Shown here one piece after another: positions 9,601 to 37,633 of a stretch of 45,211 nucleotides of DNA. How positions within the stretch are numbered: the stretch's first letter is position 1; each line of letters starts with the position of its first letter. The notes beneath the pieces were generated by a model. That model made no database searches and was not told where the DNA came from. It saw only the letters and a list, made by a program, of their open reading frames with translations. Source of the DNA: Alphaproteobacteria bacterium (GTDB lineage Bacteria > Pseudomonadota > Alphaproteobacteria > Paracaedibacterales > CAIULA01); the NCBI GenBank assembly GCA_019749935.1, contig JAIEPD010000046.1:1-45211 (forward strand), written 5' to 3'. The position numbers and the translations under genes were made by a program.

Positions 9601-10890
9601 TTATATCGACCTATCAGTCTTCTGTTCTACTTCTAATTTCTCAAAATGCCAAAGGCCCAGTATATAACCTGTAAACACGGGAACTGTAATAATCAATGTT
9701 CCCCAGCTCCCTAAATATTCTGTTAAGTAAACAAGCCCAAAAGAAGTAATAATATAGACCACAGCACGAGATAACGCGTAGGTGAAACTGATATACGTAA
9801 ATCGTTTTAGAACGGGGAAATATTTATAAAAGACCGACGTTGCCGGTGATGCATCTGCTGCAAAAAATATGATACAACATTGAAGAAGAAGGACTTGAAA
9901 CTCACTTTGCAAATTATCTAACCAATAAGGATAACTCATAATAATAATTGAAGAGATGAGCAGTTTAACTTTCAATATTTTTAGGGGATATATTTTATAA
10001 CTTAAAAATACAAACAATAGGTAGGTGCTTATTTGCACCATCGAAACGATAAAGTTTTGGTGAATAATTTGCTCGGGGCTATAGCTAAAAGAATTCTTCA
10101 AAATTATGCCACAATGCATATATGAAAAATAAAAGCACAACGGCCACATACAATCCATTAGAAACAAAGCCAACGACGTTCTATAATCAACTTTCTCTTG
10201 GACAAAAGAGCCAGACTCTTCCTCTGTGTCCATAGAAGTCACTTGTCGTTTTGCATCCGTAAAATCAGGAGTTTCTCTTAAAAATATTCTTCCAGCAGCT
10301 CCTACAAGAGCAATAACAGCTCCTACTCCAAAAATAACGCGCCAGTTAAATCCAAAATAAATTACAAAGGATGCAACAGCCAAAGAAGCTGCTCCTCCTA
10401 TAGCTGACGCGAATGCAAGTAGTGCAACTGCTGAATATCTAGCCGGGGGCTTTATAAACTCGCTCAAATAAAGCTGAGCGCCGGTAAGCTCTCCCATCGA
10501 CGACATTCCTTGGACAATACGGCATATCGTAACAATCCAAGAAGCCATAATACCAATCTGAGCATATGTCGGCAAGTTAGCCATAAGGACGCAAGATAAG
10601 GACATGAACATAATTGTTAGAATAACCGTGACTTTACGCCCAACGTAATCACCGATAAAACCAAAGATCAGCGCCCCAATGGGTCTAAATATATAAGTTG
10701 TACAAAATGCAAAAGCGGCAAGAAGACTGGCAGTATGAGGATCCGTTTTAGGGAAGAACAACTCATTTAACAGAACCGCCATATGGACATAGAGCATTAA
10801 ATCAAAGTATTCAAGAAAAGTCCCTATTGACAGCAAACCTACTGCCTGCTTTTGTTCTTTGTCTAATGATGTAAATATGCCGCCCATCAT
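9601..10890 (-). CDS. MFS transporter, ProP/MHS-like (copy 1)
   Basis: A 429-residue, 12-helix transporter of the metabolite:H+ symporter branch, resembling proline/betaine (ProP) carriers expanded in intracellular alphaproteobacteria. Visible are the opening SIGTFLEYFDLMLYVHMAVLL, the loop GFIGDYVGRKVTV (the MFS motif between helices 2 and 3), RIVQGMSSMGELTGAQLYLSE and RETPDFTDAKR before a charged central loop. It lies 42 bp downstream of a close paralog in the same orientation, suggesting tandem duplication and co-transcription. Substrate is not readable. The 7-bp inverted repeat AGCTCTT/AAGAGCT at 9556-9601 spans the stop but has a 32-base loop. Confidence 0.9.
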   Translation of the reverse strand: MMGGIFTSLDKEQKQAVGLLSIGTFLEYFDLMLYVHMAVLLNELFFPKTDPHTASLLAAFAFCTTYIFRPIGALIFGFIGDYVGRKVTVILTIMFMSLSCVLMANLPTYAQIGIMASWIVTICRIVQGMSSMGELTGAQLYLSEFIKPPARYSAVALLAFASAIGGAASLAVASFVIYFGFNWRVIFGVGAVIALVGAAGRIFLRETPDFTDAKRQVTSMDTEEESGSFVQEKVDYRTSLALFLMDCMWPLCFYFSYMHCGIILKNSFSYSPEQIIHQNFIVSMVQISTYLLFVFLSYKIYPLKILKVKLLISSIIIMSYPYWLDNLQSEFQVLLLQCCIIFFAADASPATSVFYKYFPVLKRFTYISFTYALSRAVVYIITSFGLVYLTEYLGSWGTLIITVPVFTGYILGLWHFEKLEVEQKTDRSI

Positions 10891-10932
10891 TTAATTACAC
10901 CAAAACTAACAAAGAAAAGAAAAAAGAACTTT

Positions 10933-12225
10933 TTAAATTTTATTTTGCTCATGGCTATCGATTCTATCTAAATTTTCAAAATGTCTTAACCCAATTGTGT
11001 ACCCCACACAGACAGGCACCATAATGATTAAAATTCCCCAATTACCAAAACTTTCCGTCAAATAAACAAGGCCAAAAGAAGTAATAACATATGTTAACGC
11101 GCGAGATAAAGCGTATGTGAAACTAATATAAGTAAAACGCTTAAAAACAGGGAAATGCTTATAAAAAATTGACGTGGCAGGCGCAGCATCAGCTGCAAAG
11201 AATATGACAGCTGACTGAAGGAAAAACAGGTAAAATGGGTCCGTTATATTATTAAGCCAGTACGGACAAGTTACGATAATGATTGCTGAGATAATGAGTT
11301 TAACTTTTAGAATGATCAACGGATAAACTTTGTAACTCAAAAAAACAAATAGCAAAAGGCTTGCTATCTGCACCAAAGAAACAATGAAATTTTGATGGAT
11401 GATCTGCTCAGGTGTAAGATCAAAAGAATGTTTGAGTATATTGCCGCAATAAACATAAGAAAAATAAAAACAAACAGGCCACATACAATCCATTAAAAAC
11501 AGAGCTAAGGATGTTTTCTGATTTACCTTTTCTTGCTGAATAGAATCGCTTTCAAATGGCTCAAACTTTCTTCGTTTTTTTGCATCTTTTATTCGTCTTT
11601 TCGCATCCGCAAAATCAGGCGTTTCTCGAAGCTTTGTTCTGGCAACTGCCCCAACAACTGCAATTGTTGCCCCTACCCAAAAGGCAAGACGCCAATCAAG
11701 ACCAAACGAAGTCACAAACGATGCCAAACCAAGGGCCGCAGATGTTCCAAGTGAAACAGCTAGAGCAAGCAGTGCAACAGCTGGATATCTAGCAGGCGGT
11801 TTTATCGTTTCGCTTAAGTAAAGCTGAGCCCCTGATATTTCACCCATCGAAGACATGCCCTGAACAATACGACACATCGTCACAATCCAAGAAGCAGCTA
11901 TGCCTATTTGTGCATATGTTGGTAGGTTTGCCATAGTCAAGCATGAAAAAGACATCATGGTCGTCGTGATAACAACTGTTACCTTTCTTCCCAAATTATC
12001 ACCAATATAACCAAACACAAGTGCGCCTATCGGCCTTAAAAGGTAAGTTGAGCAGAAAGCAAAAGCTGTAAGGAGTCCTGCCGTATGAGCATCTGTCTTC
12101 GGAAAAAACAGCTCATTTAACAAAACTGCCATGTGAATATATAGCATTAAGTCAAAATATTCTAGAAAAGTACCTATAGATAGTAAAGCTACAGCTTCAC
12201 CTTGTTCTTTATTTAATCTGGGCAT
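10933..12225 (-). CDS. MFS transporter, ProP/MHS-like (copy 2)
   Basis: A 430-residue paralog of the downstream gene; the first 80 residues are nearly colinear (SIGTFLEYFDLMLYIHMAVLL, GYIGDNLGRKVTV, RIVQGMSSMGEISGAQLYLSE). It differs most in the central cytoplasmic loop, which carries an extra KDAKKRRKFEPFES segment, and at the C-terminus. The pair points to duplication with retained membrane core, possibly split substrate preference. The start MPRLNKEQ aligns with SLDKEQ of copy 1. Probably the first gene of a two-gene operon; a dispersed repeat lies upstream. Confidence 0.9.
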   Translation of the reverse strand: MPRLNKEQGEAVALLSIGTFLEYFDLMLYIHMAVLLNELFFPKTDAHTAGLLTAFAFCSTYLLRPIGALVFGYIGDNLGRKVTVVITTTMMSFSCLTMANLPTYAQIGIAASWIVTMCRIVQGMSSMGEISGAQLYLSETIKPPARYPAVALLALAVSLGTSAALGLASFVTSFGLDWRLAFWVGATIAVVGAVARTKLRETPDFADAKRRIKDAKKRRKFEPFESDSIQQEKVNQKTSLALFLMDCMWPVCFYFSYVYCGNILKHSFDLTPEQIIHQNFIVSLVQIASLLLFVFLSYKVYPLIILKVKLIISAIIIVTCPYWLNNITDPFYLFFLQSAVIFFAADAAPATSIFYKHFPVFKRFTYISFTYALSRALTYVITSFGLVYLTESFGNWGILIIMVPVCVGYTIGLRHFENLDRIDSHEQNKI

Positions 12226-19422: not shown

Positions 19423-20226
19423 ATGGGTTCTCCTTTATCAGCCTTCCAATTTAATCAAACGATTACCCCTCTTATTGAATCTATTGGCCTCCCGTTATTA
19501 AAGAATTTTGGAATAACGCACTTTGGTCACATCAAAGTGAATAATGATGGCCTTATGCTGCGCCTTGCAAATTACGAACCTTGGAACAAAATTTATTTCC
19601 AAGAAGAGTTTTATAACGACGAAAAACTATACAACATGAGCTGGGTGCCCCTTAATTGCAAAAAAAGGCAAATGTTAATTGGACAGCCGAACACACCACA
19701 TCAAAAAATCCTTTTTGAAAATGGTTTGTGGAATTTTCTACTTATTTACGAACGGACGGAAAATGAGGGAACTTTCACTTTTTTTGGCACAACACCAGAA
19801 AACGCAAGCGTCATTGACTATTATATAAATAACCCCGAAGCATTTGATCATTTTACACTTTATTTCAAAGAAAAAACTTTTCCGCATTTAGAAATGAAAA
19901 AGGATAGATGCATTCAATTAAACAGCTCTCCGTTTGAACCCCAAAAAAATGAAGAGGATACTCTTGAGAATTTTTACAAACAGACAGAGATTTCTAAATT
20001 TCATTTGGGAGAGTCTTTTGGAAATTTGACTTTATCGAAACGAGAAGCCCAATGCCTTTATTATCTTCTTAAAGGACAATCAGCAAAAGAAATTGCGAAA
20101 TGCCTTCGTTTATCCCCTCGAACTGTAGAATCATTTCTTGATATCATTAAACGGAAAACAGGCATTCACAGCAAAACAAAGCTTATTGAAAGGTTCTATA
20201 ACGCTATTCCTGTGTGTGTTGATTAA
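19423..20226 (+). CDS. LuxR-family transcriptional regulator with N-terminal sensor-like domain
   Basis: A 267-residue regulator. The C-terminal LuxR/FixJ-type HTH (about 200-260) is clear: LTLSKREAQCLYYLLKGQSAKEIAKCLRLSPRTVESFLDIIKRKTG. The N-terminal 180 residues look like a PAS/autoinducer-type alpha-beta sensor (WVPLNCKKR, FENGLWNFLLIYE) but lack residues that would prove acyl-homoserine lactone binding. A similar LuxR layout is common in amoeba-associated bacteria. It stands alone between gcvPB and the oligopeptidase. The cognate signal is unknown and no luxI is present in the window. Confidence 0.8.
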   Translation: MGSPLSAFQFNQTITPLIESIGLPLLKNFGITHFGHIKVNNDGLMLRLANYEPWNKIYFQEEFYNDEKLYNMSWVPLNCKKRQMLIGQPNTPHQKILFENGLWNFLLIYERTENEGTFTFFGTTPENASVIDYYINNPEAFDHFTLYFKEKTFPHLEMKKDRCIQLNSSPFEPQKNEEDTLENFYKQTEISKFHLGESFGNLTLSKREAQCLYYLLKGQSAKEIAKCLRLSPRTVESFLDIIKRKTGIHSKTKLIERFYNAIPVCVD

Positions 20227-26379: not shown

Positions 26380-26913
26380 GTGATTCATCTAAAATTTGGA
26401 GCGATTGTTTGTTTTCTTCTTGGTTTTTGTGGTACCGGACAAGCCACTACATTTTTTCAAGGAATATATGAAGGAGTCATAAATTTAGCTAAAACCTTTT
26501 CATCCTCACATCCAAGCCCTTCAAAAAGCATCTCATTCAGTGATGATGACGATGATTTGGTTGTGGAAAGCCGTTTGTCTTATAAAGGTATATTCTGCGC
26601 ATCTCCAGAACTAGAATCAGTGGCACCAGAAAGCGGTGTCGCTTTCTTTGAAGCTTGGCATCAACCGTTGTATGTTAGATACTATAATCCATTGACTATC
26701 GATGCTCTTCAACATCGACTGTTTTGCAACCTGTTAGAAACATCTCAACAACGATATCTCTACCCAGATATCTTTTATAACCCATTCGATGTGGTGGATC
26801 AAAACTATCCCTTAAGAATCGTTGAGCTTTATAGAGCGCCTCTTCCCAGCATGGCAGCAACCGTTGAATCTTTTTCCTTGCTGCCGCGCGAGGATCCAAA
26901 CTCAAAAGCATAG
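26380..26913 (+). CDS. Secreted hypothetical protein overlapping the phage holin gene
   Basis: The GTG at 26380 is chosen because AGAAAGGA lies 9 bases upstream and the result is a clean signal peptide (MIHLKFGAIVCFLLGFCGTGQA). The earlier TTG at 26326 has no such support. The mature protein (about 156 residues) has an acidic run DDDDD near residue 50 and aromatic-rich repeats such as WHQPLYVRYYNPLT and YPDIFYNPFDVVDQNY. The last 28 codons (26829-26913) are antisense to the conserved C-terminus of the convergent holin gene, so the original C-terminus may have been replaced when the phage block arrived. Function unknown. Confidence 0.6.
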   Translation: MIHLKFGAIVCFLLGFCGTGQATTFFQGIYEGVINLAKTFSSSHPSPSKSISFSDDDDDLVVESRLSYKGIFCASPELESVAPESGVAFFEAWHQPLYVRYYNPLTIDALQHRLFCNLLETSQQRYLYPDIFYNPFDVVDQNYPLRIVELYRAPLPSMAATVESFSLLPREDPNSKA

Positions 26914-27365
26914 GCATCTTTTAGACACGCACCAAAAATACCTGCAACCGTTGAAATGATGCCAACTGCTTCTCCAGGTAAATCTTCAGCATAAAAAGCC
27001 AAGGATGCCAAACACATAATCAAACCCATGGCAGCGGAAACCACCATGATATCAGCGCGAACATTTTTATGCCCCACTTGGGCAAGAGCGATGTCACGGT
27101 TTCTTGCATTCTGGCGGTCTTGTAAAGTAGCAACCTCCAGATCCTTATCCATTTCCAACACTGCTTTTTGAAATTCGATGACAGCACTGGGGTTTTCTTT
27201 TAAGGAACTGGTTAAATCGTTTGTATCATCACATCCCGTTATTTTCTTAGCGATATCAACAACTTGCGCCGCAACATCTTGTGCTTGGTTGCCGCTAAGC
27301 CACCTGGCGATCACAGGCGCAAATTGAGCCAAACCAAAAGCCGCTGCAATAAGAGGAAAAGCCAT
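26829..27365 (-). CDS. GTA-type 3TM holin
   Basis: 178 residues matching the GTA_holin_3TM type: an N-terminal hydrophobic segment (MAFPLIAAAFGLAQFAPVIA), a central charged helix (EFQKAVLEMDKDLEVATLQDRQNARNR), then two membrane helices (about 104-122 and 132-148) and the tail YAFEFGSSRGSKEKDS, which is typical of this family. It would permeabilise the inner membrane for lysis or particle release. It lies 3 bp downstream of the wall hydrolase gene, completing a two-gene lysis cassette at the end of the phage block. Confidence 0.8.
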   Translation of the reverse strand: MAFPLIAAAFGLAQFAPVIARWLSGNQAQDVAAQVVDIAKKITGCDDTNDLTSSLKENPSAVIEFQKAVLEMDKDLEVATLQDRQNARNRDIALAQVGHKNVRADIMVVSAAMGLIMCLASLAFYAEDLPGEAVGIISTVAGIFGACLKDAYAFEFGSSRGSKEKDSTVAAMLGRGAL

Positions 27366-27368
27366 AAT

Positions 27369-27800
27369 TTAAATTCCTAATTGATAAAATTGATGAAGGC
27401 CTAAGCAAAACTTAGGATAACGGCCTTGCGCCCATTTAGGTTCCTTTGCCAGAATACGGCTAAAATAATGATCACAGCCTTTCGTGATGTCCGGCCATTT
27501 ATAATTCGCAACTGCGATTGCAACCTGTCTGCAGATTTTAAAAATGGGATCATATTTGGATATGTTTTGAATTACCATAAGATTAGGATCGCCTTGATTC
27601 CAACAGGAAAATTGCCATGGTTTCTGGCAAACCTCAGCAATTGACCGCCCAAACCAGCCCCCCGTTTTAACCCTATTCATGATCACATTACCAATGGCAA
27701 TCAGGGCAGCTAATCCGCCATCGGGTTTATTATATTCCCCGCGCCCTTCTCCATAAAGGGTTCGGGCGAGGATATCTAGGTCATGTTCAATGATCGTCAT
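27369..27800 (-). CDS. SleB-like cell wall hydrolase (phage endolysin)
   Basis: 143 residues of the Hydrolase_2/SleB type: LARTLYGEGRGE (near 10-21) holds the catalytic Glu motif, followed by ALIAIGNVIMNRV, CQKPWQFSCWN and CDHYFS. The family cleaves peptidoglycan glycan strands. It has no signal peptide, so export would rely on the adjacent holin. It abuts the tail-side gene upstream (1-bp spacing) and the holin downstream, consistent with a lysis operon. Confidence 0.85.
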   Translation of the reverse strand: MTIIEHDLDILARTLYGEGRGEYNKPDGGLAALIAIGNVIMNRVKTGGWFGRSIAEVCQKPWQFSCWNQGDPNLMVIQNISKYDPIFKICRQVAIAVANYKWPDITKGCDHYFSRILAKEPKWAQGRYPKFCLGLHQFYQLGI

Positions 27801-28169
27801 TTATACCTCCCCCACCAGCACCTGCCAGCAATCAGATTGCGCCTCAAAATCAGAACTTACATGTGGTGATTTACAGAAATACAAAGCCTTTTTATGATTA
27901 ACCCAATCACCATAATTATAGCGAACACCAGCCGTCCATTCTCCTCGGACATTGGGTAAGTATTTCGGCAAAACAAAAGGACCAAAGACGCGCCCAAAGG
28001 TTCCTTCGATCATCAATTGATCCGCTTCCTGGCGAATTTCCTTGATACCTTCAGCCATAAGGGGACTGCTTTCTAAAGACGTTAGACGTTCATCAAGGTG
28101 TTTAAAATTTCCATCCATTTCTTGGATGCTTAAAGGCGCTCCTTTATGCTCGCGGTAGACGACAGGCAT
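27801..28169 (-). CDS. Phage structural protein with CBM5/12-like C-terminus
   Basis: 122 residues starting MPVVYREHKGAPLSIQEMDGNF; this ATG has GGAG six bases upstream, so the longer frame to 28292 is rejected. A coiled-coil-like segment (FKHLDERLTSLES) follows. Residues about 78-120 carry W-T-x-G-V-x-Y-x-x-G-D-x-V, then YFCKSPHVSSDFE and WQVL, the pattern of small chitin/carbohydrate-binding (CBM5/12-like) modules found on tail fibres. It could bind a surface glycan. It overlaps the upstream structural gene by 26 bp. No family is certain. Confidence 0.65.
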   Translation of the reverse strand: MPVVYREHKGAPLSIQEMDGNFKHLDERLTSLESSPLMAEGIKEIRQEADQLMIEGTFGRVFGPFVLPKYLPNVRGEWTAGVRYNYGDWVNHKKALYFCKSPHVSSDFEAQSDCWQVLVGEV

Positions 28170-28977
28170 GGCTTTCTCCTTTTTTAAAAATAATTTCGAC
28201 ATATTGTGTTGAAGTATCATTTTGCTTATAAGCAAGGGATGTGTACTTTTGAAAATGCCCATCGCCGTTTTCATCAACGCCAAGACTGACATTCAAAACA
28301 ACCTGTCCCGTTTCAATGTCACCACCTAGATTTGTGAAGCTAACTTCCTCCATCATTACAGCACTTGGATTGGGCGCGCCCTTTGTCCATGCAGAGGCTC
28401 TTGTTAAAAAGACCCCTGTTTTCATTCCATCAATAATTGGCGTAAAAAGGATTTGTTCAATCTGATTCAGACTGCAAGAATCTTTGTAATAACCGCCATA
28501 TCCCCAAATCGGCTGACCGTTTTCGGTTCCGGGCGGCGTTACGATCACCTTTTTATCGACCAAATCTTGATGAATGGTATGGGTGATATTTTCTTGGGTT
28601 ATAAAACGCTTTTCATACAGAACTGTGTTCTGAATCTCCATTTCTAAAGTCCCATTTATGATGGACTCAAAGACTAACTGTACGCCTTCATAATGGCCAT
28701 TTTCTGCCACATCACTTTTGCCGTTGTAAACCATACATGGCTCAAATCGCCGATCTTGCCTGAACATAACAATTTCAGTCCGTTTGTCAGATTCCTTAAT
28801 AGGCAGAATTCTAGCCTTTACCGTCAAAGTTTTTGGCAAATTCGCCTGCGGGGGCACAAAATTTGAGAAAGCCTCAAGATGTCCGATTTGAAAGTTTGAT
28901 GGATCGTAATTAATCCGCTCGGTACTCATAACTGTGTGGCCCTTTGGAAAGGGTCGTGGTGTGAAGTGGAATGTCAT
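28144..28977 (-). CDS. Phage structural protein, probable tail/fibre component
   Basis: 277 residues starting MTFHFTPRPFPKGHTV, with AAGGA 8 bases upstream of the ATG. The sequence is beta-rich with no membrane segment. Stretches such as YDPSNFQIGHLEAFSNFVPP, VTPPGTENGQPIWGYGGYYKD and VVLNVSLGVDENGDGHFQKY are reminiscent of tail tip or fibre proteins. Position between the large tail protein and the lysis genes supports a tail role. No named family recognised. It overlaps its downstream neighbour, indicating translational coupling. Confidence 0.6.
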   Translation of the reverse strand: MTFHFTPRPFPKGHTVMSTERINYDPSNFQIGHLEAFSNFVPPQANLPKTLTVKARILPIKESDKRTEIVMFRQDRRFEPCMVYNGKSDVAENGHYEGVQLVFESIINGTLEMEIQNTVLYEKRFITQENITHTIHQDLVDKKVIVTPPGTENGQPIWGYGGYYKDSCSLNQIEQILFTPIIDGMKTGVFLTRASAWTKGAPNPSAVMMEEVSFTNLGGDIETGQVVLNVSLGVDENGDGHFQKYTSLAYKQNDTSTQYVEIIFKKGESHACRLPRA

Positions 28978-28998
28978 GATTTGGGTCCTTTCGTAATC

Positions 28999-29067
28999 TG
29001 CCTGAGATTCCGGATATTAAGTCTCACATTGCGGCAAAGCCGCAGTTTGACTAAATTCCGGAATGAC
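28999..29067 (-). repeat. Palindromic intergenic repeat, copy A
   Basis: Read on the minus strand it begins GTCATTCCGGAATTTAG and ends TATCCGGAATCTCAGGCAG, with an internal hairpin GCGGC-TTT-GCCGC. It aligns over its full length with copy B at 29089-29160 in the opposite orientation. Confidence 0.75.
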
Positions 29068-29088
29068 AATTTTTCTTTTTTAAATTAA

Positions 29089-29160
29089 TGTCATCCCAGA
29101 ACCTAGACGAATCGCATCTTTAGATGCGTATGAGTCTTAGTATCCGGGATCTCATGACAT
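29089..29160 (+). repeat. Palindromic intergenic repeat, copy B
   Basis: It begins TGTCATCCCAGAACCTAG and ends TATCCGGGATCTCATGACAT, with an internal hairpin CGCATCT-TT-AGATGCG. It has the same framework as copy A, but the hairpin sequence differs while pairing is kept. Head-to-head with copy A around a 21-bp AT-rich centre. Confidence 0.75.
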
Positions 29161-29172
29161 TGATTAATTTAA

Positions 29173-30858
29173 CTAGAGGCAAATCTGCCTTGGCGCTGAC
29201 CAAGGCCCTAAAACATCAAGATGAATATGATGCTCCAACACATCTTTCGTCCTAAGGTCCAAAAGCTCAACGTCAATAACCGTTGGCATTTCGTTTAAGC
29301 AGCTAAGGGTGTTTTCCCTTACCGGATATTCGTTTTCAAAAAGATACTGGCATTGTTTTTCAGCGTCTCCTTTGACCTCGATTTTTTTGATGAAATCATA
29401 AATATTTAAACCATAAGGATTCAAAAGCCCTTCTTTTGGAGTTTGGTGATGATACGTTTTAAAACGAATTCCCGAGAGTGTTGTAAAATAAGGATGCTTG
29501 CTTTCAGCGCAATAGCCCTCTTCCAAATAATCATCATCAGCTGACAAATGATCAACAGCCTCTTCCCCAATTCCAGCCGCAACGTTTAAGCGAATCTTAG
29601 CAATTGATCCAGAAGGCGTTATGAGAAAGTTATATTCTGCAATCTTTCCTGTAACTTCGCCGCCAGGAATTTTATCGGATTTTATATAGACGGAATCATT
29701 CAAGGTCATATCAATGGCGCTTAACAAAGGCACTTCAAATTCAATTTCAATGCACCTGCAAGATCCAGCCAAATGAGCCTTAGCAATTTCTAAGGCATGC
29801 GTTATTGCAAGTCGCCCACGATCACTTATAAAAAAGCTAGATGCCCCAGGATTCACTAACGAATTTTCAACGGATTGCAGCTGCAGGCGCAAAGTTTTTT
29901 GCCTTGCCCGAATATGGCCTTTTAATTGAGAGGATTGATGCAATGTAAAATGCACAACTTCTCTTCGTTTTTGAAAATAATGCCAATAAAGCCATAATTC
30001 GCCTTTAAACCATGACCTTTTTAACCGAAACGATTCTGGTTTTCCGTCAACAAGCTTTGTAATCAATGGAGTTACGGTTGGGTAAATATCTAAAATGCCC
30101 GTTGTTGGAGGGATAAAAGGCTTTAATTTACTTTGAACAACCTGGTACCCAGATTGTTTCAAACTGGCAAAAGGACCGATTTTATCAAAAACCTTTGGCC
30201 ATTGTTTCATCAATTGATTTGGCGTTAACGTATTGACCATTCGTTTGGGGAATTTTTTAGCAATTTGCGGGAAAAGATTTATTTTTCCCTCTGCCTTTTG
30301 AATCCATTCTGCACTTATTTCTAACGTTACTGAGTCAAGAGGTGTGTCGGCTAAGCTTAGCTTTAAACTGTTCCTTAAAATGTTATTGGATAAATCAAAA
30401 ACCCTGGTTCCTGCAAATAAATTGCTTAAACGAATGCTTCCCAAACACCTGTCCCAAACAAAAAGATCACTTCGCGCTTCGAGAACGTTTGCTGGATTAT
30501 TATCGTTTGGTTCTATGAACAATTCATCATAAACCAACGGCTGCTTAAGAGATTCAGAGAGCTTTTTCAGCTGCTCGCCAGCATCATCCGGTTCACTTGT
30601 ATATTCGATTTCAGCAAGGTCTTCAGCCATCAGGCGAGGAAAGCCGACGCGCCTTCCTTTAAATAAAAGATGCTTTTCACCGTTTAACTCTTCGCAAACA
30701 ATGCTGCCATACACGGGGATTTTCGATACGGTATCATCATTTTTAACGACAAGCTTGGCAAAAGCCGTTTCATTTTCCCTTTGAGAAATAGTAAGGCTAA
30801 ATATCTTGATATCACTTAAACTTTCTGTATGGCCTGTTTCCAATAAATACGTTTTCAT
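29173..30858 (-). CDS. Large phage tail/baseplate-like protein
   Basis: 561 residues beginning MKTYLLETGHTESL. The N-terminal 170 residues (LTISQRENETAFAKLVVKND, HLLFKGRRVGFPRL, EIEYTSEPDDAGEQLKKL) look like a beta-rich hub domain of the type seen in gp27/late-control-D proteins: a rule for local coordinate change followed by a VLEARSDLFVWDR-type stretch. The C-terminal part is again beta-rich (LSAIDMTLNDSVYIKSDKIPGGEV). Position between head/tail genes and fibre-like genes supports a tail hub. The exact family is not certain. It has a 314-bp gap to the divergent EamA gene region, no tape measure precedes it, and two palindromic repeats follow. Confidence 0.55.
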   Translation of the reverse strand: MKTYLLETGHTESLSDIKIFSLTISQRENETAFAKLVVKNDDTVSKIPVYGSIVCEELNGEKHLLFKGRRVGFPRLMAEDLAEIEYTSEPDDAGEQLKKLSESLKQPLVYDELFIEPNDNNPANVLEARSDLFVWDRCLGSIRLSNLFAGTRVFDLSNNILRNSLKLSLADTPLDSVTLEISAEWIQKAEGKINLFPQIAKKFPKRMVNTLTPNQLMKQWPKVFDKIGPFASLKQSGYQVVQSKLKPFIPPTTGILDIYPTVTPLITKLVDGKPESFRLKRSWFKGELWLYWHYFQKRREVVHFTLHQSSQLKGHIRARQKTLRLQLQSVENSLVNPGASSFFISDRGRLAITHALEIAKAHLAGSCRCIEIEFEVPLLSAIDMTLNDSVYIKSDKIPGGEVTGKIAEYNFLITPSGSIAKIRLNVAAGIGEEAVDHLSADDDYLEEGYCAESKHPYFTTLSGIRFKTYHHQTPKEGLLNPYGLNIYDFIKKIEVKGDAEKQCQYLFENEYPVRENTLSCLNEMPTVIDVELLDLRTKDVLEHHIHLDVLGPWSAPRQICL

Positions 30859-30945
30859 TAATTTATCGTCCTTAAATTATCCCTCGACATCGCTTATGCG
30901 AGAAGTTAAAGTTGTCCAAAGTAAAAATAAATTCACTTGAAAATC

Positions 30946-31902
30946 ATGAGCACTAACACTATTTCAACAACAGGAACATCTTCTTCTGTGTTTAGAAAAA
31001 TGAATGACACCATACTCTCTTTGCCTCTTTTTAAATGGTTCGTTAGCAAAGGTTATGCTCAAGGTGTCTTTTGGGCTGTTATGATTTCCGTTGTCAGTGT
31101 CACCAATGACGTGCTGATGCGTTTTTTGGGCGAACGTTTACACCCTGTAGAAATTTCGTTCTTTCGCTTTTTCTTTAGTATGGTTTCGATACTGCCCCTG
31201 ATGGTTTCAAGTGGCGTGACTCTTTTCAAAACCAAACGCCCAATGATGCACGCTTTGCGTGCTGTCTTGGGAGCAATTGCGCTTGGGCTTTGCTGCTATT
31301 CAGTTAACATCATGCCGCTTTCAGAGAACACAACCATTATGTTCTGTGAACCGTTATTCCTCCTGCCGCTGGCATATATTCTTTTAAAAGAAAAAGTCGA
31401 TGCCCCCAGGTGGATTGCAACTATCGTAGGTTTTATTGGTTTGATGATTATTCTTCGCCCCGGAACCGACGCCTTTAGAGTTGTCGCCTTTGTTCCCATG
31501 ACAGCAGCCATTCTATTTGCTCTTTCGAATATCATGGTTAAAAAAATGACCGGTGAACATGCCTCAACGATGTTGTTTTATTTTGGTGTTGGCACAACTC
31601 TTTTTGGTCTTATTCCATTGCCTTTCTTTTGGGAAATGCCAACTTTAAGTGAATTAGGATTGTTAGTTCTGCTTGGAATTGGCGGAAATATGATTCAGGT
31701 GTGCTTGTTCAGAGCCTTTTCAGCAACAGAAGCCTCAGCCCTTGCCCCATTTAGATATGTAGAATTTATCATTTCAGCTATTGTTGGATATATCTTGTTT
31801 AGCCAAATTCCAACCGTGTGGATCTTTGGTGGAGCAGCGCTTATTACCATAAGCACTTTCTACATCACCATTATGGAAACAAGAAAAGAGAAAAGATCTT
31901 AG
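30946..31902 (+). CDS. EamA/DMT-family transporter (S-adenosylmethionine-uptake-like)
   Basis: The start is the ATG at 30946 (MSTNTISTTGTSSS); the TTG nine bases upstream adds little. About ten membrane helices in two EamA repeats are visible: FWAVMISVVSVTNDVLMRFLG, ISFFRFFFSMVSILPLMV, ALRAVLGAIALGLCCYSV, and PRWIATIVGFIGLMIILRPG closing the first repeat. The arrangement resembles the rickettsial carriers that import S-adenosylmethionine from the host, but the substrate is inferred only from resemblance. It lies on the plus strand inside the minus-strand phage block, so it is cargo, not part of the particle. A terminator overlaps its stop. Confidence 0.8.
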   Translation: MSTNTISTTGTSSSVFRKMNDTILSLPLFKWFVSKGYAQGVFWAVMISVVSVTNDVLMRFLGERLHPVEISFFRFFFSMVSILPLMVSSGVTLFKTKRPMMHALRAVLGAIALGLCCYSVNIMPLSENTTIMFCEPLFLLPLAYILLKEKVDAPRWIATIVGFIGLMIILRPGTDAFRVVAFVPMTAAILFALSNIMVKKMTGEHASTMLFYFGVGTTLFGLIPLPFFWEMPTLSELGLLVLLGIGGNMIQVCLFRAFSATEASALAPFRYVEFIISAIVGYILFSQIPTVWIFGGAALITISTFYITIMETRKEKRS

Positions 31903-31912
31903 GGTCTTTTTT
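31891..31912 (+). terminator. Intrinsic terminator after the EamA gene
   Basis: AAAAGATC (31891-31898) pairs with GGTCTTTT (31903-31910, one T-G pair) around TTAG, followed by two further T. The stem includes the last codons and the stop. Confidence 0.6.
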
Positions 31913-32007
31913 ATCCCTATAAATTAATTTTTTATCCTTACAACAAAGAACATTCTTTGTGCTGATTTGTTGTGTTTTGCCAAAATAGCTAAAATTTGTG
32001 ATACCTT

Positions 32008-32403
32008 ATGAAGAAAATTTATTATTTTATAACTCTTGCTCTTTTGTTTATAAATAACTTACCCACGCATGCTACGGATGATTTAATTGTGCCGCCTGCT
32101 GCTAAGAAAAGATTTTTTACAGTAGCGCCTAAAAATCAAAAAGAAGCTGAAGAGTTTATTTTTCCTATATTAAAGCCCACTAATGAAGTGAAAAAAGCCG
32201 CCGAAGACTTTTTTAGCTTCGCTTTTACTCCCGAGAATGCCCCTTTTACTGCATTTCTTACTCTTGGTGTATGGAATAATCTGATCGATCATACTTTTGG
32301 AAAAGGCGAAGATGATCAACTCACTGCCCTCAATGCTCTGCATATGAGAACTAACCATTATCTTAACAGAAAAAGAAGAGCAGAAACCCCGCCCTTAGAT
32401 TAG
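32008..32403 (+). CDS. Secreted hypothetical protein (131 aa)
   Basis: It begins MKKIYYFITLALLFINNLPTHA, a classic signal peptide cleaved after THA. The mature part of about 109 residues is charged, with AKKRFFTVAPKN, a helical EVKKAAEDFFSFAF, a hydrophobic FTAFLTLGVWNNLID and a basic tail LNRKRRAETPP. No family recognised. Orphan between the EamA gene and the phage tail-type gene, read in the same direction as EamA but separated from it by a terminator. Confidence 0.7.
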   Translation: MKKIYYFITLALLFINNLPTHATDDLIVPPAAKKRFFTVAPKNQKEAEEFIFPILKPTNEVKKAAEDFFSFAFTPENAPFTAFLTLGVWNNLIDHTFGKGEDDQLTALNALHMRTNHYLNRKRRAETPPLD

Positions 32404-32782
32404 TTTAAAAAAAATCTTACAGCGATGTAAAAGTCTATTGACATGTGCGTTGAACTGTTTTGAAATAATGAAACAGTTATTTTTTTGGTTTGCCATGACA
32501 AAGAGTTTATTATCACGATTTTTTATCATTTTATTGCCAAGAAGTGTTGCGCTTTTAAGGGCTTCTGGTCTCTTAATGCCTTTAAATCAAAGGCACAGCT
32601 TAACTGAAAGGGTTTTTAGGAACAGCGTCACAAGGAATTCTAAATTCTCGAAAATTTTGTTATGTCAAAAATCTTTATATTTTTTCTTTTATGTATAAAA
32701 AATATAGAGTAAATATGAAATGTATATTAACAACAAAGGAGATTGACCATGGTTCCTTGCATTAATTAATAAAAAAGCGTAC
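32404..32782 (+). other. Gene-free stretch with a tiny ORF bearing a strong ribosome site
   Basis: There is no convincing gene here. An 86-codon frame from 32438 (MTCALNCFEIMKQLFFW) has no ribosome site and a composition unlike the neighbours. A six-codon ORF, MVPCIN (32749-32769), has a perfect AAAGGAG at 32735-32741 with a 7-base spacer and sits just before a terminator hairpin. Confidence 0.4.
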
Positions 32783-32820
32783 AGGAAGGAGTAAGTTAAA
32801 TCATGCTCCTCCTATTTTTT
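32783..32820. terminator. Probable bidirectional terminator at the end of the head gene block
   Basis: AGGAAGGAG (32783-32791) pairs with CTCCTCCT (32806-32813) with one bulged A; ATTTTTT follows on the plus strand. On the minus strand, six T (32770s) lie a few bases beyond the stem. It would end transcription of the head block coming from 32849 and of any small plus-strand transcript. Confidence 0.55.
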
Positions 32821-32848
32821 GTCTTCTCTTCTTCATTCATCATATGTC

Positions 32849-33358
32849 CTAAATCTCTTCCATCTCTAAGCTCCAGCCGCCTTTTATTCCCCATTCATCT
32901 GTATTCAATGAATAGGTGACGGTTCGCATATTCAGCCACGGTCTGTAACTGATGTAGTAAGTTTGAGCTCTGTCCTCGAGTTGGATCTTTTTTCCATCCA
33001 TTTCACGAATAGCAATTTGCTTTTGGTTTTCATCCATAACGACAACAGATCCTTTAACCGGATAGCGTTCCAAAGTAATGGGTGTGTTCTCTGGAGCTTC
33101 TTTGACCTTTTGCCACAGACGCTGAACACACCCCAACATCACCTCGCAGCCAGGATATAAACCATCCGTTGCAAAAGCCGTTTTATCATCACATTTCACA
33201 GTAGATTTATATTTCAGATCTTGGCCGCCAACCATAACCAGCTCTCCATTGATTGTTCGCCTGAGGTTACCTTGTGGAACAGGGATTAACTCTTGCTTAC
33301 ATCCGCGCGCCGATAAAGGTGGAAATCCACCGACGCTTAAAATAAGTTCGGTTTCCAT
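32849..33358 (-). CDS. Phage tail-type protein
   Basis: 169 residues beginning METELILSVGGFPPLSARGCKQELIPV. The sequence is beta-rich with a conserved-looking CEVMLGCVQRLWQKV segment and a C-terminal YYISYRPWLNMRTVTYSLNTDEWGIKGGWSLEMEEI. Its position immediately after the tail terminator and small gene matches where a tail tube or tube-associated protein normally lies. No family could be named. It closes the head/neck module at a terminator, and no tape measure or chaperone pair follows. Confidence 0.6.
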   Translation of the reverse strand: METELILSVGGFPPLSARGCKQELIPVPQGNLRRTINGELVMVGGQDLKYKSTVKCDDKTAFATDGLYPGCEVMLGCVQRLWQKVKEAPENTPITLERYPVKGSVVVMDENQKQIAIREMDGKKIQLEDRAQTYYISYRPWLNMRTVTYSLNTDEWGIKGGWSLEMEEI

Positions 33359-33376
33359 TTTCTTTATTCCTTCTGT

Positions 33377-33556
33377 TTATTGTCTTTCGGCCCACCTAGG
33401 CTTGTCATGAACTTGTCCACGTGCAGATTCCAGCGCACGCTTTTTTAAAGCTTCTTCTATGACAAGGCTATCTTCAATATCAAAAGGGGTTTGATCGGGC
33501 TGCTTTTTAAATTTATCTAGGGTAGAAATATTGGAATCTTTTTCTTCATCATTCAT
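33377..33556 (-). CDS. Small phage-block protein (59 aa)
   Basis: A short gene reading MNDEEKDSNISTLDKFKKQ, then a helix DIEDSLVIEEALKKRALESARG and KPRWAERQ at the end. GAGG lies 5 bases before the ATG at 33556, and the gene starts one base after the tail-terminator stop. It is charged and probably helical. Placement between tail terminator and tail-type gene resembles that of small tail assembly factors, but no family match can be claimed. Confidence 0.65.
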   Translation of the reverse strand: MNDEEKDSNISTLDKFKKQPDQTPFDIEDSLVIEEALKKRALESARGQVHDKPRWAERQ

Positions 33557-33557
33557 C

Positions 33558-33962
33558 TCAACCTCTTATTAAAACTTCATAATATTGTTCAACCTTTCTG
33601 GGTTTCTTCGCACAAGGGAGATCAATAATACTATTAGCAAGTTTGAAAATTCCCTGCTTGCCATCCAACAAAGATAAGGTTTTTCCATCCATGACTTGTT
33701 TTATTTTATCAGCGATTGAAAGGGATTCTTTACCTGTTGGGTTTTGACTAACAATCGAAGCCTTTAGTTTTAGACGAGTATTGGCTGTGTCCGATCCCAA
33801 TTTCATAGAAGTCCAGACTTCCTCTAATTCTAAAAGAATCATCGGGAATTGCGCAGCGGGAGGTATAGCCAAATGGATATGCTCAGAAAATCCATTTTCT
33901 TGCACGCTTGCATTATCGGCTAAAAGTGCCCTCATTGCTTTTAAAACACCGAAGTCAGCCAT
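33558..33962 (-). CDS. Phage tail terminator (DUF3168-like)
   Basis: 134 residues beginning MADFGVLKAMRALLADNA, then IPPAAQFPMILLELEEVW, a strand set around LKASIVSQNPTG and ESLSIADKIKQVMDG. This matches the DUF3168 tail-completion type (HK97 gp10/GTA g8-like), which caps the tail tube and joins it to the head. It overlaps the upstream head closure gene by 8 bp. Its order after connector and closure genes is the canonical one. Confidence 0.75.
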   Translation of the reverse strand: MADFGVLKAMRALLADNASVQENGFSEHIHLAIPPAAQFPMILLELEEVWTSMKLGSDTANTRLKLKASIVSQNPTGKESLSIADKIKQVMDGKTLSLLDGKQGIFKLANSIIDLPCAKKPRKVEQYYEVLIRG

Positions 33963-34341
33963 TTTTGCTCTCCCTCCTGCACTCTACTGCTATTCCTTCT
34001 ATCCATTTTCCATTCTCATAGATCTGAAAAGGAATTAATATATCTAAAATTTTATGATTCCAGCGTATCGCGTTTAGATATGCGTGTCTAGCAATTCTGT
34101 TATCGCTATTTCGCATAGTAATTTTAAACATTCCGTCGATTTTTTCCGTTTTTAAGCTATGCCAATGATCTAGACTATCGCTCGTGAAACTAGACAGAGG
34201 CTCGATTTTAGCCCAAACAGAGCTGATTTCCTGATCTATTTCTTCGATCTCTTCATCGCAATTTACGATAATTTTTCGATGAATCAAAACAACCCTATGG
34301 CGAAAGTCACTTAGCGAGTGTGATCTTTTTATCACACTCAT
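33955..34341 (-). CDS. Phage head-tail joining/head closure protein
   Basis: 128 residues starting MSVIKRSHSLSDFRHRVVLIHR. The layout is that of Phage_H_T_join/SPP1 gp16-type closure proteins: an N-terminal DFRHRVVLI strand, a central ISSVWAKIEPL strand, MFKITMRNSDN and a final IRWNHKILDILI strand. It stabilises packaged DNA at the portal vertex and connects the tail. It overlaps the upstream connector by 4 bp and the downstream terminator gene by 8 bp, a sign of a tight, translationally coupled operon. Confidence 0.75.
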   Translation of the reverse strand: MSVIKRSHSLSDFRHRVVLIHRKIIVNCDEEIEEIDQEISSVWAKIEPLSSFTSDSLDHWHSLKTEKIDGMFKITMRNSDNRIARHAYLNAIRWNHKILDILIPFQIYENGKWIEGIAVECRRESKNG

Positions 34342-34649
34342 GGCAGCCTCACCGCACGATAAGGTGCTAATAATGACTGAAAAAGGGTCTGATTTTGAAT
34401 TATAGACGTTGTACGATTTTCATAAAACTCAGAAACCATTAATAAAATGGAATGCTTAATGCTGGCAGGAAGATATCTGGAGTGAAAATCACTAAGAGAT
34501 TTATCCAAATATTTCTCGACATAATCCGTTGCAGCAGCAATAAGTGACTTTAGATAATCATCCTCATGGGTAGAATCAAGACGCAAATGCGTCTTGACCT
34601 CTTTTAAACTAACGACTTCCATCTCAATAGGATTTGAAAGGCTACACAT
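34338..34649 (-). CDS. Phage head-tail connector (gp6-like)
   Basis: 103 residues. VSLKEVKTHLRLDSTHEDDYLKSLIAAATDYVEKYLDK is the signature of gp6/QLRG-type connector proteins, with helices that form a ring under the portal. The C-terminal half, PASIKHSILLMVSEFYENR, is also typical. It comes directly after the capsid gene, the usual place for this protein. Confidence 0.88.
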   Translation of the reverse strand: MCSLSNPIEMEVVSLKEVKTHLRLDSTHEDDYLKSLIAAATDYVEKYLDKSLSDFHSRYLPASIKHSILLMVSEFYENRTTSIIQNQTLFQSLLAPYRAVRLP

Positions 34650-34652
34650 CTA

Positions 34653-35765
34653 TTATTCTCCAGAAAAGTTTATAACTTTGATTGCATCGAAGCTAATGAC
34701 ATCGCCGCCAACACGCTTGGTCACGTAAAACTCAACGTATGGTTTTGCGCTATAAGGATCTCTTAAGACATGCAAAGAGGATCTATCGACAATTTGATAG
34801 GCTTCATAAAAGTTAGCAAAAACCATAGATTGACTACTTTTACCGTCAACCAAGGCTGGCATGTCATCGCTAATCACGATAGGGTACCCCAAAAGACTAT
34901 CAGGTGCGCCTGCAACAAGGCTTGGTTGCCAGAGGGAATATCCACCCATTTCATCTTTCAATTTGCGAAGGGCTGAAATGGCACTACGTGACATGAACCA
35001 AACTGCACCATTTAAATACTGGGGCTTCATGGCATTTAATGTATCTAATAAAATATCAGTATTTTTGAACTTGCCATCCGCGCCGGTATTTAGGCTTTCT
35101 AATTTGCCCCAAACACCTTCACCAACGGGAACAGTCTCATAGTTTAAAAAGCCAGTTGGTTTATTTTCTCCATCGCCATGAATGAATGCAGCGTTTTCTG
35201 AAGCCCCCATTTTCTCAGCGACTTTTCCAATCAACCAATTTTCGATATCAATGCTTGCATCATCCAGGATTTTTTGACTAGCTCTGGGCTTTGCGTAAAT
35301 TTGGTGCACGGGAATGCGAACCTTAGCAAGCTCAGGTGTTTCGGTTTCTTTTCTTTCCTCTATTTCGCTGACCCAACCCACATCAGCATTGCCTTTATCA
35401 AGCAACAACTCTAATGAATCCGTTGAAATATTAGTGATCCTTGCCAAAGACCTTAAAGGAGAAATGCGATTCAAGGCCTTTTCAATGCGTTCTGTAACAA
35501 CGGCTGGTATTAAAAAGCCACCCGTTGGTCCTTCAAGACTAGTTAAAGCTTTTTCCTGAAAACTACTTTGGCCTTGGGTGATATAATCCATAAAGGCCTG
35601 TTTTTGAGAGCAATTTTGATTCGAATCAGTTCCCAGCAACGGCCTTTGCCCTGCTGCATAAAGCTTTTGGAATCGCTTGTCTTGCTTTTCTTGAAACGCT
35701 TTAAAGCTTTCCTCTAAATTGTTGATTGCTTGGTCGACCTTTTCAAAAGTTTGTATTGTATCCAT
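34653..35765 (-). CDS. Phage major capsid protein, HK97 family
   Basis: 370 residues from the ATG at 35765, which has AAGGA 9 bases upstream; the longer frame to 35822 overlaps the protease and lacks a ribosome site. An N-terminal coiled-coil delta region (about 1-60, FEKVDQAINNLEESFKAFQEKQ) is followed by the HK97 fold: EGPTGGFLIPAVVTERIEKAL, NAAFIHGDGENKPTGFLNYE and KDEMGGYSLWQPSLVAGAP. The delta region would be removed by the adjacent protease. Confidence 0.93.
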   Translation of the reverse strand: MDTIQTFEKVDQAINNLEESFKAFQEKQDKRFQKLYAAGQRPLLGTDSNQNCSQKQAFMDYITQGQSSFQEKALTSLEGPTGGFLIPAVVTERIEKALNRISPLRSLARITNISTDSLELLLDKGNADVGWVSEIEERKETETPELAKVRIPVHQIYAKPRASQKILDDASIDIENWLIGKVAEKMGASENAAFIHGDGENKPTGFLNYETVPVGEGVWGKLESLNTGADGKFKNTDILLDTLNAMKPQYLNGAVWFMSRSAISALRKLKDEMGGYSLWQPSLVAGAPDSLLGYPIVISDDMPALVDGKSSQSMVFANFYEAYQIVDRSSLHVLRDPYSAKPYVEFYVTKRVGGDVISFDAIKVINFSGE

Positions 35766-35812
35766 GGTTTTTTCCTTTCTTTGGGAGGATGGGTGGTGGA
35801 CGAATTTTGTGG

Positions 35813-36367
35813 TTAACAACAATGCTGAAGCAATTCCTGCATACTCATCATGCCTTGCAAATCATTCAGCCTTTGTACTAATTTATTAACGCTCGCATAA
35901 GGACTTAGCCAATCTTTATAAGATGTGACCTTGGCTTTAGGGTTTGCTGCAAATGTCACGAGTGAAATCTCATGTAGATCAACTTCTTGCAGGACACGTC
36001 CTTTGTCCTGACGTAGCGCTTTGACAACCTGAAAACCAATCGATAATCCGTCTAGAATTCCAGCTTTAAGCAGCGCATAAGTTTCGCGGCCTTGGCGCAC
36101 ATCAAGCAGCAACTGACCTTTGACAAACAAACCGTGTTGATCCTCGGCAATATCCAACCACTTCCCAATCGGTGCCTTGGGATCATGTTGCCACAGCATT
36201 TTTGGCATTTTGCCTCGCTGACTCCAATTATAAAGGCTTTTGCTAAAGGCCCCTTTGGCAATCATTTCTTGTTGAAGATCTATATTATTGAAAACACTGG
36301 CATAGCCGGAAAAAGTGCCATCGTCCTCGCAGCTTTTTAGACGCAAAGCAGGGTATAGGTGATTCAT
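35813..36367 (-). CDS. Phage prohead protease, HK97 family
   Basis: 184 residues of the U35 prohead protease type. Catalytic residues are visible: His61 in LWQHDPKAPIGKW, Ser109 in LDGLSIGF and Glu133 in LHEISLVTFAANPKA. It trims the capsid delta domain during maturation. It lies between portal and capsid genes, the standard order. The C-terminal tail MSMQELLQHCC is unusual in ending with two Cys. Confidence 0.93.
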   Translation of the reverse strand: MNHLYPALRLKSCEDDGTFSGYASVFNNIDLQQEMIAKGAFSKSLYNWSQRGKMPKMLWQHDPKAPIGKWLDIAEDQHGLFVKGQLLLDVRQGRETYALLKAGILDGLSIGFQVVKALRQDKGRVLQEVDLHEISLVTFAANPKAKVTSYKDWLSPYASVNKLVQRLNDLQGMMSMQELLQHCC

Positions 36368-36415
36368 GAGTATCTCCTTTGGGGTTGTTTAAATTTTTTG
36401 TAATTGATCAAGGAC

Positions 36416-37633
36416 CTAAAATGAAAATCTATCCCCGCCATCAATCGGGCTATAGCCAACGGCATGGCGTTTTTCATTAAGCGTCAGAAAATCAGCATTG
36501 GCGATTTTGTTCCAGGCTGCTTCTCGGCGTGATGCCAAAGCGGGGATTGAATCGATGTCATACCCCAAAGATAAATTTTCACCAAAATACGGCAAAAGCC
36601 ATAAATTAAATTCGGCAACCAAAAACTCTAAGAGTGGCATGATGGTATCTTCCCACAAATGGAACCTGGCCTCTTTATAATTAGAAAATGTGGCATCTCC
36701 AGACACACCGACAAGCATAGGCGGCACGCCAAAGGCCTGTGCAATTTCACGAGCCGAAAGGTTTTTACCAGCGATAAAATCCAAATCTTTAGGAGATAAC
36801 CCCATTTCCCGCCAATCGCATTCACCTTCGAAAACCATAATTTTGCCGGCGTTTTTAGTGCCCGCATAAACGTCCTTTAGATCTTGCCTCAATGTTTCGC
36901 GTTGTTCTTGCGTTAAGGTATAACCATCAGAATTGGGCTTTACCAAAAGGGCCCCTGAAGGTCTACCGCCATTTTGCATCAAGGCCAAATTATGATTTCC
37001 AACTTCATTATGTTGATCGATTGAACATCCTGCTGCCTCAAGAGGGCTCATGCCATACCAATCATTTAAAGGGTGAAAGCTTTTTAAATGGAGAACATTC
37101 GATTTTCCCGACAGTGAATCAACACTGAGCTGCTTTCGATGGCCACCAACCGAATATTCAAAAGCTTCTATCATCCCACCTTTACCAGGAATGATTTGCA
37201 TTCGATCAGGCCTTAAGGCGTGAAGTTCTATTGGAGTTATATCTTCATTTAAAACAGCTTCGATGTAACTGTTTCCAGATAATAAAAGATACCCAACAAC
37301 AGATTCCATAAAAGCAGAACCGGCCTGACGTGGGCTTGGGCAATTTAACAAATCCAACACAGGGTGTTTTTCAACCTCATGCCTTTCTTGATTTTTTTGT
37401 TCATACAAAAGCCAGGCAACGCTAGCAACTCCGCGCGCAATCAGATTGACGCATCTGTAAACAATTGCGTTTCTTTGATAGCCTTCCTTCGTCAACGTAT
37501 CATAACGCTTAGGTGTCCAAAGGGGTCTTCCAACCTCATTATATGCAATCAACGGCGCTACACCACTTGCTTTCTTTGAGAATGAATTTGCATGCAATGA
37601 TTCAGGCATAAATGATCGAATCCATTTTTTCAT
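36416..37633 (-). CDS. Phage portal protein, HK97 family
   Basis: 405 residues of the HK97/lambda-type portal: ALRPDRMQIIPGKGG, LHLKSFHPLNDWYGMSPLEAA, GRPSGALLVKPN, LSAREIAQAFGVPPMLVG and SNYKEARFHLWEDTIMPLLEFL are all typical. It forms the dodecameric DNA entry channel. It is the first gene of the surviving head block; a terminase large subunit, which normally precedes it, is not present in the 312 bp upstream, where a palindromic repeat lies instead. Confidence 0.95.
   Translation of the reverse strand: MKKWIRSFMPESLHANSFSKKASGVAPLIAYNEVGRPLWTPKRYDTLTKEGYQRNAIVYRCVNLIARGVASVAWLLYEQKNQERHEVEKHPVLDLLNCPSPRQAGSAFMESVVGYLLLSGNSYIEAVLNEDITPIELHALRPDRMQIIPGKGGMIEAFEYSVGGHRKQLSVDSLSGKSNVLHLKSFHPLNDWYGMSPLEAAGCSIDQHNEVGNHNLALMQNGGRPSGALLVKPNSDGYTLTQEQRETLRQDLKDVYAGTKNAGKIMVFEGECDWREMGLSPKDLDFIAGKNLSAREIAQAFGVPPMLVGVSGDATFSNYKEARFHLWEDTIMPLLEFLVAEFNLWLLPYFGENLSLGYDIDSIPALASRREAAWNKIANADFLTLNEKRHAVGYSPIDGGDRFSF

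Follow-up and report, generated by a model that had tools for sequence, protein, structure and literature searches.

A conserved, probably gene transfer agent-like head, hub and lysis cluster of Holosporales with a transporter gene in the tape-measure slot

Introduction

Can a phage-derived particle without a tape measure still be kept under selection, or are the genes for such a particle simply leftovers? The question is raised by a gene cluster in the window analysed here, a stretch of 45,211 nucleotides that forms contig JAIEPD010000046.1 (C90) in the 1.89 Mb, 96-contig genome of an alphaproteobacterium (GCA_019749935.1, hereafter G000; Paracaedibacterales in the GTDB lineage). The cluster runs on the minus strand from position 37633 down to 26829, head and neck genes first and hub and lysis genes last. 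A first-pass annotation, made from the letters alone, described a compact particle set, possibly GTA-like, without integrase or replication genes, and neither was found within the cluster, nor were a terminase and a tape measure.

A complete head-tail set is generally regarded as a requirement for gene transfer agents (GTAs), whose genes in endosymbionts are usually taken for leftovers; George et al. 2022 reportedly described GTA genes with incomplete tails in Rickettsiales and Holosporaceae endosymbionts. The cluster probably encodes the head, neck and hub of a particle of the GTA kind together with its lysis proteins; the particle would be domesticated and unable to replicate, have a very short tail and be inherited vertically across Holosporales.

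Conservation and selection

Searches covered 58 genomes, 42 of them in the order Holosporales, and synteny was assessed by tblastn and profile searches over the loci of relatives and 34 named contigs. Named relatives with the cluster are Ca. Odyssella, Ca. Paracaedibacter, Ca. Finniella, Caedibacter and Ca. Hydrogenosomobacter, all Holosporales, an order whose members live in protists. The window itself belongs to an alphaproteobacterium of Holosporales type. Where the cluster is whole, the order is portal, protease, capsid, connector, closure, terminator and a tube-fold gene, then an antisense EamA transporter gene, then hub, fibre-like, hydrolase and holin-like genes. This arrangement recurs in many families of the order, in most cases with recG nearby, and in several families recG adjoins the cluster end. 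The holin-like protein is 62-68% identical in most relatives, and Ca. Hydrogenosomobacter, whose complete genome measures 826,669 bp, retains the cluster. At 103 aa, the connector of the window and of one same-genus genome is shorter than that of most of the other relatives (about 180 aa); in both genomes its middle has been lost in frame.

Selection was estimated by comparing the window with G001, a genome of the same genus, as the pairwise Nei-Gojobori ratio of nonsynonymous to synonymous substitution (dN/dS). Ratios run from 0.037 for the capsid to 0.107 for the hub among the capsid, portal, protease, tube-fold, hub and holin-like genes (Table 1) and lie at 0.07-0.15 in the remaining particle genes, except for the closure gene, which is highest at 0.25; the neighbouring recG and pgm genes give 0.05. 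Since dS is near 1, the absolute ratios are rough, and other genome pairs with lower dS give agreeing values. Because the gene order is order-wide and dN/dS lies at 0.04-0.15 in most particle genes, the cluster is read as maintained and domesticated, in line with the possibility raised in the first-pass annotation that selection has kept the set.

Decay from an ordinary prophage would explain the missing tape measure and replication genes, the frameshifted or split genes of some relatives and the loss in four genomes. It is nonetheless highly improbable: the low dN/dS rules out plain decay, relatives are colinear and mostly intact, the set is retained in a genome of 0.83 Mb, and the gene trees are congruent. 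Portal and capsid occur once each in G000, so there is no second, fuller prophage of which the cluster would be a partial copy, and the annotation's two refuting cases, decay in relatives and a complete source elsewhere, both fall away. A complete prophage was also rejected, as integrase, replication, terminase and tape measure genes are all absent from the locus. Particle genes that stay in place, pass on vertically and come without a tape measure would suit a superinfection or anti-phage device, in which donated neck and capsid parts interfere with invading phages. The comparative results give this device no support and it leaves the retained lysis and hub genes without an evident role, which makes it very improbable.

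The tape-measure slot

The cluster is not the single tightly packed block first described. A gap of about 2 kb between the genes for the 169-aa and 561-aa proteins divides the head and neck half from the hub and lysis half, and holds two opposite-strand genes, one for an EamA transporter and one for a small secreted-looking protein, the latter a host gene outside the particle set. Among the 27 loci holding both tube-fold and hub genes, 26 carry an antisense EamA gene between them (25 identified by script; tblastn added L096, in which the hub frame is over-long and overlaps the EamA gene). The lone exception is Ca. Odyssella L13, with tube-fold and hub genes side by side. This slot is where clusters of the type of the Rhodobacter capsulatus GTA (RcGTA) keep their tape measure. 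In 17 of the 27 loci no sense-strand frame of at least 80 aa lies in the slot outside EamA, and the sense frames of the remaining loci mostly begin like secreted host proteins. A tape-measure profile built from two canonical clusters matched none of the 42 genomes of the order and four outgroup genomes, two being its own sources; the PhageMin_Tail profile had no match in G000. The claimed absence of a tape measure thus extends, with the profiles tried, to the whole genome.

Two clusters outside the order bear on the same slot. In genome G051, of another alphaproteobacterial order, a distal-tail-like gene directly follows the tube gene in an RcGTA-like cluster (L117, 13661-14682), leaving no space for a tape measure, and the genome has no match to the RcGTA tape-measure profile, possibly an independent loss. 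In G044 (L119, 12464-13306) a canonical GTA cluster with its tape measure carries an antisense EamA-like transporter gene between portal and protease, unlike the place found in Holosporales.

The tail end of the cluster

For the two proteins flanking the slot, confident AlphaFold2 models were built from the order's own alignments. The 169-aa protein has a tail-tube fold, with Foldseek matches to phage major tail proteins and VIA-align Z scores of 7-8.7 at which tubes and distal tail proteins are tied. Because this one fold is common to the stopper, terminator, tube and distal tail proteins of RcGTA (PMC7296036), it does not separate a tube from a distal tail component.

The 561-aa protein aligns with the hub of the Photorhabdus virulence cassette (PVC) over 276 residues at 3.6 Å (scores in Table 1), and by fold its nearest matches come from extracellular contractile injection systems and VgrG. 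On this predicted structure it is a hub of the gp27/Mu gp44/VgrG type, which bears out the earlier label of a tail hub-like gene. The RcGTA hub was not among the top fold matches, which is not evidence against an RcGTA hub. Neither the hub nor the tube-fold protein has a match in 50,697 phage records. No genome among the 42 of the order has a match to the two RcGTA tail families PF09931 (g13, DUF2163 hub N-domain) and PF13547 (g15, GTA_TIM megatron), which occur in five and three outgroup genomes, respectively.

A tailocin, one possible product in the first-pass annotation, or a contractile injection system finds no support: capsid genes are present, no tube-length gene is, and the sheath family PF04984 has no match in G000 and occurs in one of the 42 genomes of the order.

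The terminase and the descent of the cluster

That no terminase is present, as first described, is right for the cluster and wrong for the genome, where an intact 424-aa large terminase (TerL) of RcGTA type lies at G000:C96:69657-70928 with both its ATPase and nuclease domains kept. The accompanying idea that missing parts are drawn from elsewhere therefore holds for the terminase, while no tape measure was found in the genome. TerL homologues occur in 45 of the 58 genomes (37 of 42 in the order), nearly always in one copy. The TerL neighbourhood is syntenic within the genus only, so the gene has changed its place while being kept. The order's TerL proteins form one clade (support 100/97.7) with no phage inside, and the trees of capsid and TerL, whose loci are now unlinked, both mostly group genomes by family.

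Regarding deeper descent, the cluster could belong to a true RcGTA lineage whose tail genes were lost or have diverged beyond recognition, the 561-aa hub being a diverged or fused g13/g15. This is unlikely considering that both RcGTA tail families are absent from the whole order yet matched in outgroup clusters, that phages are interspersed with canonical and outgroup GTAs in the capsid and TerL trees, and that the closest phage TerL (about 49-50%) reach the same similarity as outgroup GTA TerL (43-52%). On the other side, the cluster agrees with RcGTA in its head gene order and capsid, hub and megatron of RcGTA jointly contain the domains found in gp27 (PMC7296036), GTA gene remnants are known in Orientia (PMC10732058), and a tree constraint uniting all GTA-like TerL is only borderline rejected (p-AU 0.054).

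The retained TerL also bears on whether the particle carries DNA at all. An empty capsid, or delivery of proteins through the VgrG-like hub to the symbiont's host or to rivals, would agree with the nearest fold matches of the hub, with the missing tape measure and with a terminase unlinked from the cluster. Yet a TerL with both domains is retained order-wide, the portal, connector and closure genes, which matter for DNA, are under selection, 41 of the 42 genomes of the order have no sheath, and the cluster has no obvious effector gene. A DNA-free particle is accordingly quite improbable.

The proposed particle

In the preferred reading, that of a domesticated GTA-kind particle, TerL would fill the head with host DNA, and a trimeric VgrG/gp44-type hub would attach straight to the head through the connector, closure and terminator together with one or a few rings of the tube-fold protein. 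The tail would be too short to need a tape measure or length regulator; it is proposed that with neck and tube-fold rings docking straight on the hub no such regulator is required. The hydrolase and the holin-like protein would release particles or open the recipient wall, and DNA would be passed between symbionts sharing a host cell. RcGTA particles without tape measure have been seen as aberrant forms (PMC7296036), which indicates that tapeless particles can at least assemble in RcGTA. More tentatively, and with somewhat less than an even chance, Holosporales may own a separately domesticated GTA-like element that delivers DNA, combining an HK97 head, an RcGTA-type TerL and a VgrG/gp44-type hub with a tail of neck rings and hub, the loss having been fixed by the transporter in the ancestor of the order and kept even in the 0.83 Mb endosymbiont.

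Several points weigh against this picture. The particle and its packaging, release and transfer of DNA are inferred from the genes. A quickly diverging tape measure may lie elsewhere in the genome, and the tube-fold protein could, from its model, be the tube itself, in which case a length regulator may have escaped notice. G001 is the nearest relative to carry the entire cluster on a single contig; its hub is frameshifted by one base at a T run, which may be an assembly error, and hub or portal frames are split in a few other metagenome genomes. In four genomes (G003, G006, G018 and G031) TerL is present and neither portal nor capsid is matched, showing that TerL and head are not strictly coupled.

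Gene content and neighbourhood

All genes named in the first-pass annotation are open (Table 1). Profile matches are clear (E 8e-15 or better) for portal, S78 protease, HK97 capsid, head-tail connector and Hydrolase_2; closure and tail terminator fall slightly below their Pfam cut-offs, yet their places are conserved in relatives. The label of GTA-type holin finds no support in Pfam: the 178-aa protein, with one or two hydrophobic segments, has no match among the holin families of Pfam, and its sole match is a family of unknown function.

Table 1. Features of the particle cluster and its central gap (window positions)
Feature	Position	Strand	Evidence	dN/dS
Portal protein, HK97 type, 405 aa	36416..37633	-	PF04860 E 1.5e-83; TIGR01537 E 9e-69	0.046
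Prohead protease, S78 type, 184 aa	35813..36367	-	PF04586 E 3.2e-34; phrog_80 E 2e-49	0.057
HK97-fold major capsid protein	34653..35822	-	PF05065 E 9e-79	0.037
Head-tail connector/adaptor, gp6 type, 103 aa	34338..34649	-	PF05135 E 4e-17; TIGR01560 E 9e-19	
Head closure protein (HCP)	33955..34341	-	PF05521 24.6 bits (cut-off 25); conserved in 28/34 related loci	0.25
Tail terminator-like protein, gp17/g8 type	33558..33962	-	PF11367 24.0 bits (cut-off 24.5); 26/34 loci	0.073
Tail-tube-fold protein (tail tube or distal tail protein), 169 aa	32849..33358	-	AlphaFold2 model confidence (pLDDT) 85	0.074
Small secreted-looking protein	32008..32403	+	No Pfam family; 38% match in G001	
EamA-family transporter	30937..31902	+ (antisense)	PF00892 E 1e-24	
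Predicted baseplate hub, gp27/Mu gp44/VgrG type, 561 aa	29173..30858	-	AlphaFold2 pLDDT 88; Foldseek E 1.5e-10; VIA-align Z 17.5	0.107
Fibre-like/structural protein, family unassigned, 277 aa	28144..28977	-	No Pfam family; same-place homologues in 16/34 loci	
Small fibre or tip protein with CBM5/12-like patch, 163 aa	27801..28292	-	PF02839 E 4e-4 (below cut-off); phrog_5073 tail fibre E 8e-4	
Cell wall hydrolase, Hydrolase_2/SleB type (endolysin or tail lysin)	27369..27800	-	PF07486 E 8e-15; phrog_938 endolysin E 2e-13	
Conserved membrane protein, holin candidate, 178 aa	26829..27365	-	phrog_1544 E 5e-23 (function unknown); hydrophobic segments	0.056

Homologues suggest start codons at about 35765 for the capsid, 28929 for the 277-aa protein and 28169 for the 163-aa protein. 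Promoter-like sites occur at chance level.

The tube-fold gene can also be found far from other particle genes, as in Caedibacter sp. 37-49, where it is found singly, flanked by recA and a gene for a penicillin-binding protein (L102, 10001-10522), and in another genome, where it lies beside dnaA (L106, 98-511). Between its terminator and tube-fold genes, G013 encodes a series of short secreted proteins that look related to one another (L030, 5495-8874), and several clusters of the order hold secreted host genes at such breaks.

In the window, an orphan LuxR-type regulator is encoded at 19423-20226, a few genes from the cluster; in other Alphaproteobacteria GTA production is under quorum regulation. 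Two adjacent, similar genes for major facilitator superfamily (MFS) transporters at 9601-12225 are a tandem duplication. ComEC, for DNA uptake, was found in nearly all genomes searched and therefore has no discriminating value. In G000 it matches in two pieces (C92:73060-73440 and C96:119929-120420) and is whole in relatives, probably reflecting an assembly break.

Meaning

A set selected across a whole order, with one precise lesion, an antisense gene in the place of the tape measure, and a different hub provides a clear and testable case for a working particle without a tape measure, and gene exchange may continue inside eukaryotic host cells. Such loci also carry a warning, as they get called viral in contig collections. 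Two IMG/VR contigs listed as viral (L141 and L142) hold the head half of the cluster and the tube-fold gene but no hub, and are probably Holosporales DNA.

Comparison with known systems

General GTA features that the cluster shows are a fixed chromosomal place, vertical inheritance, purifying selection, a terminase in the genome and no replication or integration genes in the locus. With RcGTA the cluster shares the TerL type, the portal-protease-capsid-connector-closure-terminator order, a single chromosomal copy and purifying selection, and the RcGTA capsid is the best PDB match of the window capsid (5e-75). However, RcGTA has the g11 tape measure, g13 and g15, whereas profile searches find none of the three in any genome of the order, where a complete gp27/VgrG-type hub stands instead; outgroup clusters do match. 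In further contrast with RcGTA, the Holosporales TerL is unlinked, a SleB-type hydrolase and a holin-like gene lie inside the cluster, and an antisense transporter gene sits in the middle of it. The cluster is GTA-like by its general features and fails the tail features of the RcGTA family. None of the RcGTA-like clusters reported by a GTA classifier came from Paracaedibacterales, Caedibacterales or Rickettsiales.

Endosymbionts with incomplete GTA gene sets have been described before, and the Holosporales cluster has in common with these remnants that head genes are kept and tails incomplete in intracellular Alphaproteobacteria. Orientia keeps the DUF2163 and TIM-barrel tail genes in a scattered set (PMC10732058), whereas Holosporales lack the RcGTA tail genes and keep those for head, hub and lysis in colinear order. 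No description was found in the literature of a locus that is colinear throughout an order, combines lysis genes with a hub unlike that of RcGTA and has a transporter fixed where the tape measure would lie.

Azospirillum phage Cd and other HK97-type phages have a homologous capsid (45% identity) and portal, but they have complete tails and replication genes, and no phage record matches the tube-fold or hub protein. Finally, the hubs of Mu (gp44), T4 (gp27), VgrG and extracellular contractile injection systems have a fold in common with the 561-aa protein (VIA-align Z 14-18). No sequence similarity to them was detected, and unlike them the Holosporales hub is carried with an HK97-type head in a genome without a sheath gene.

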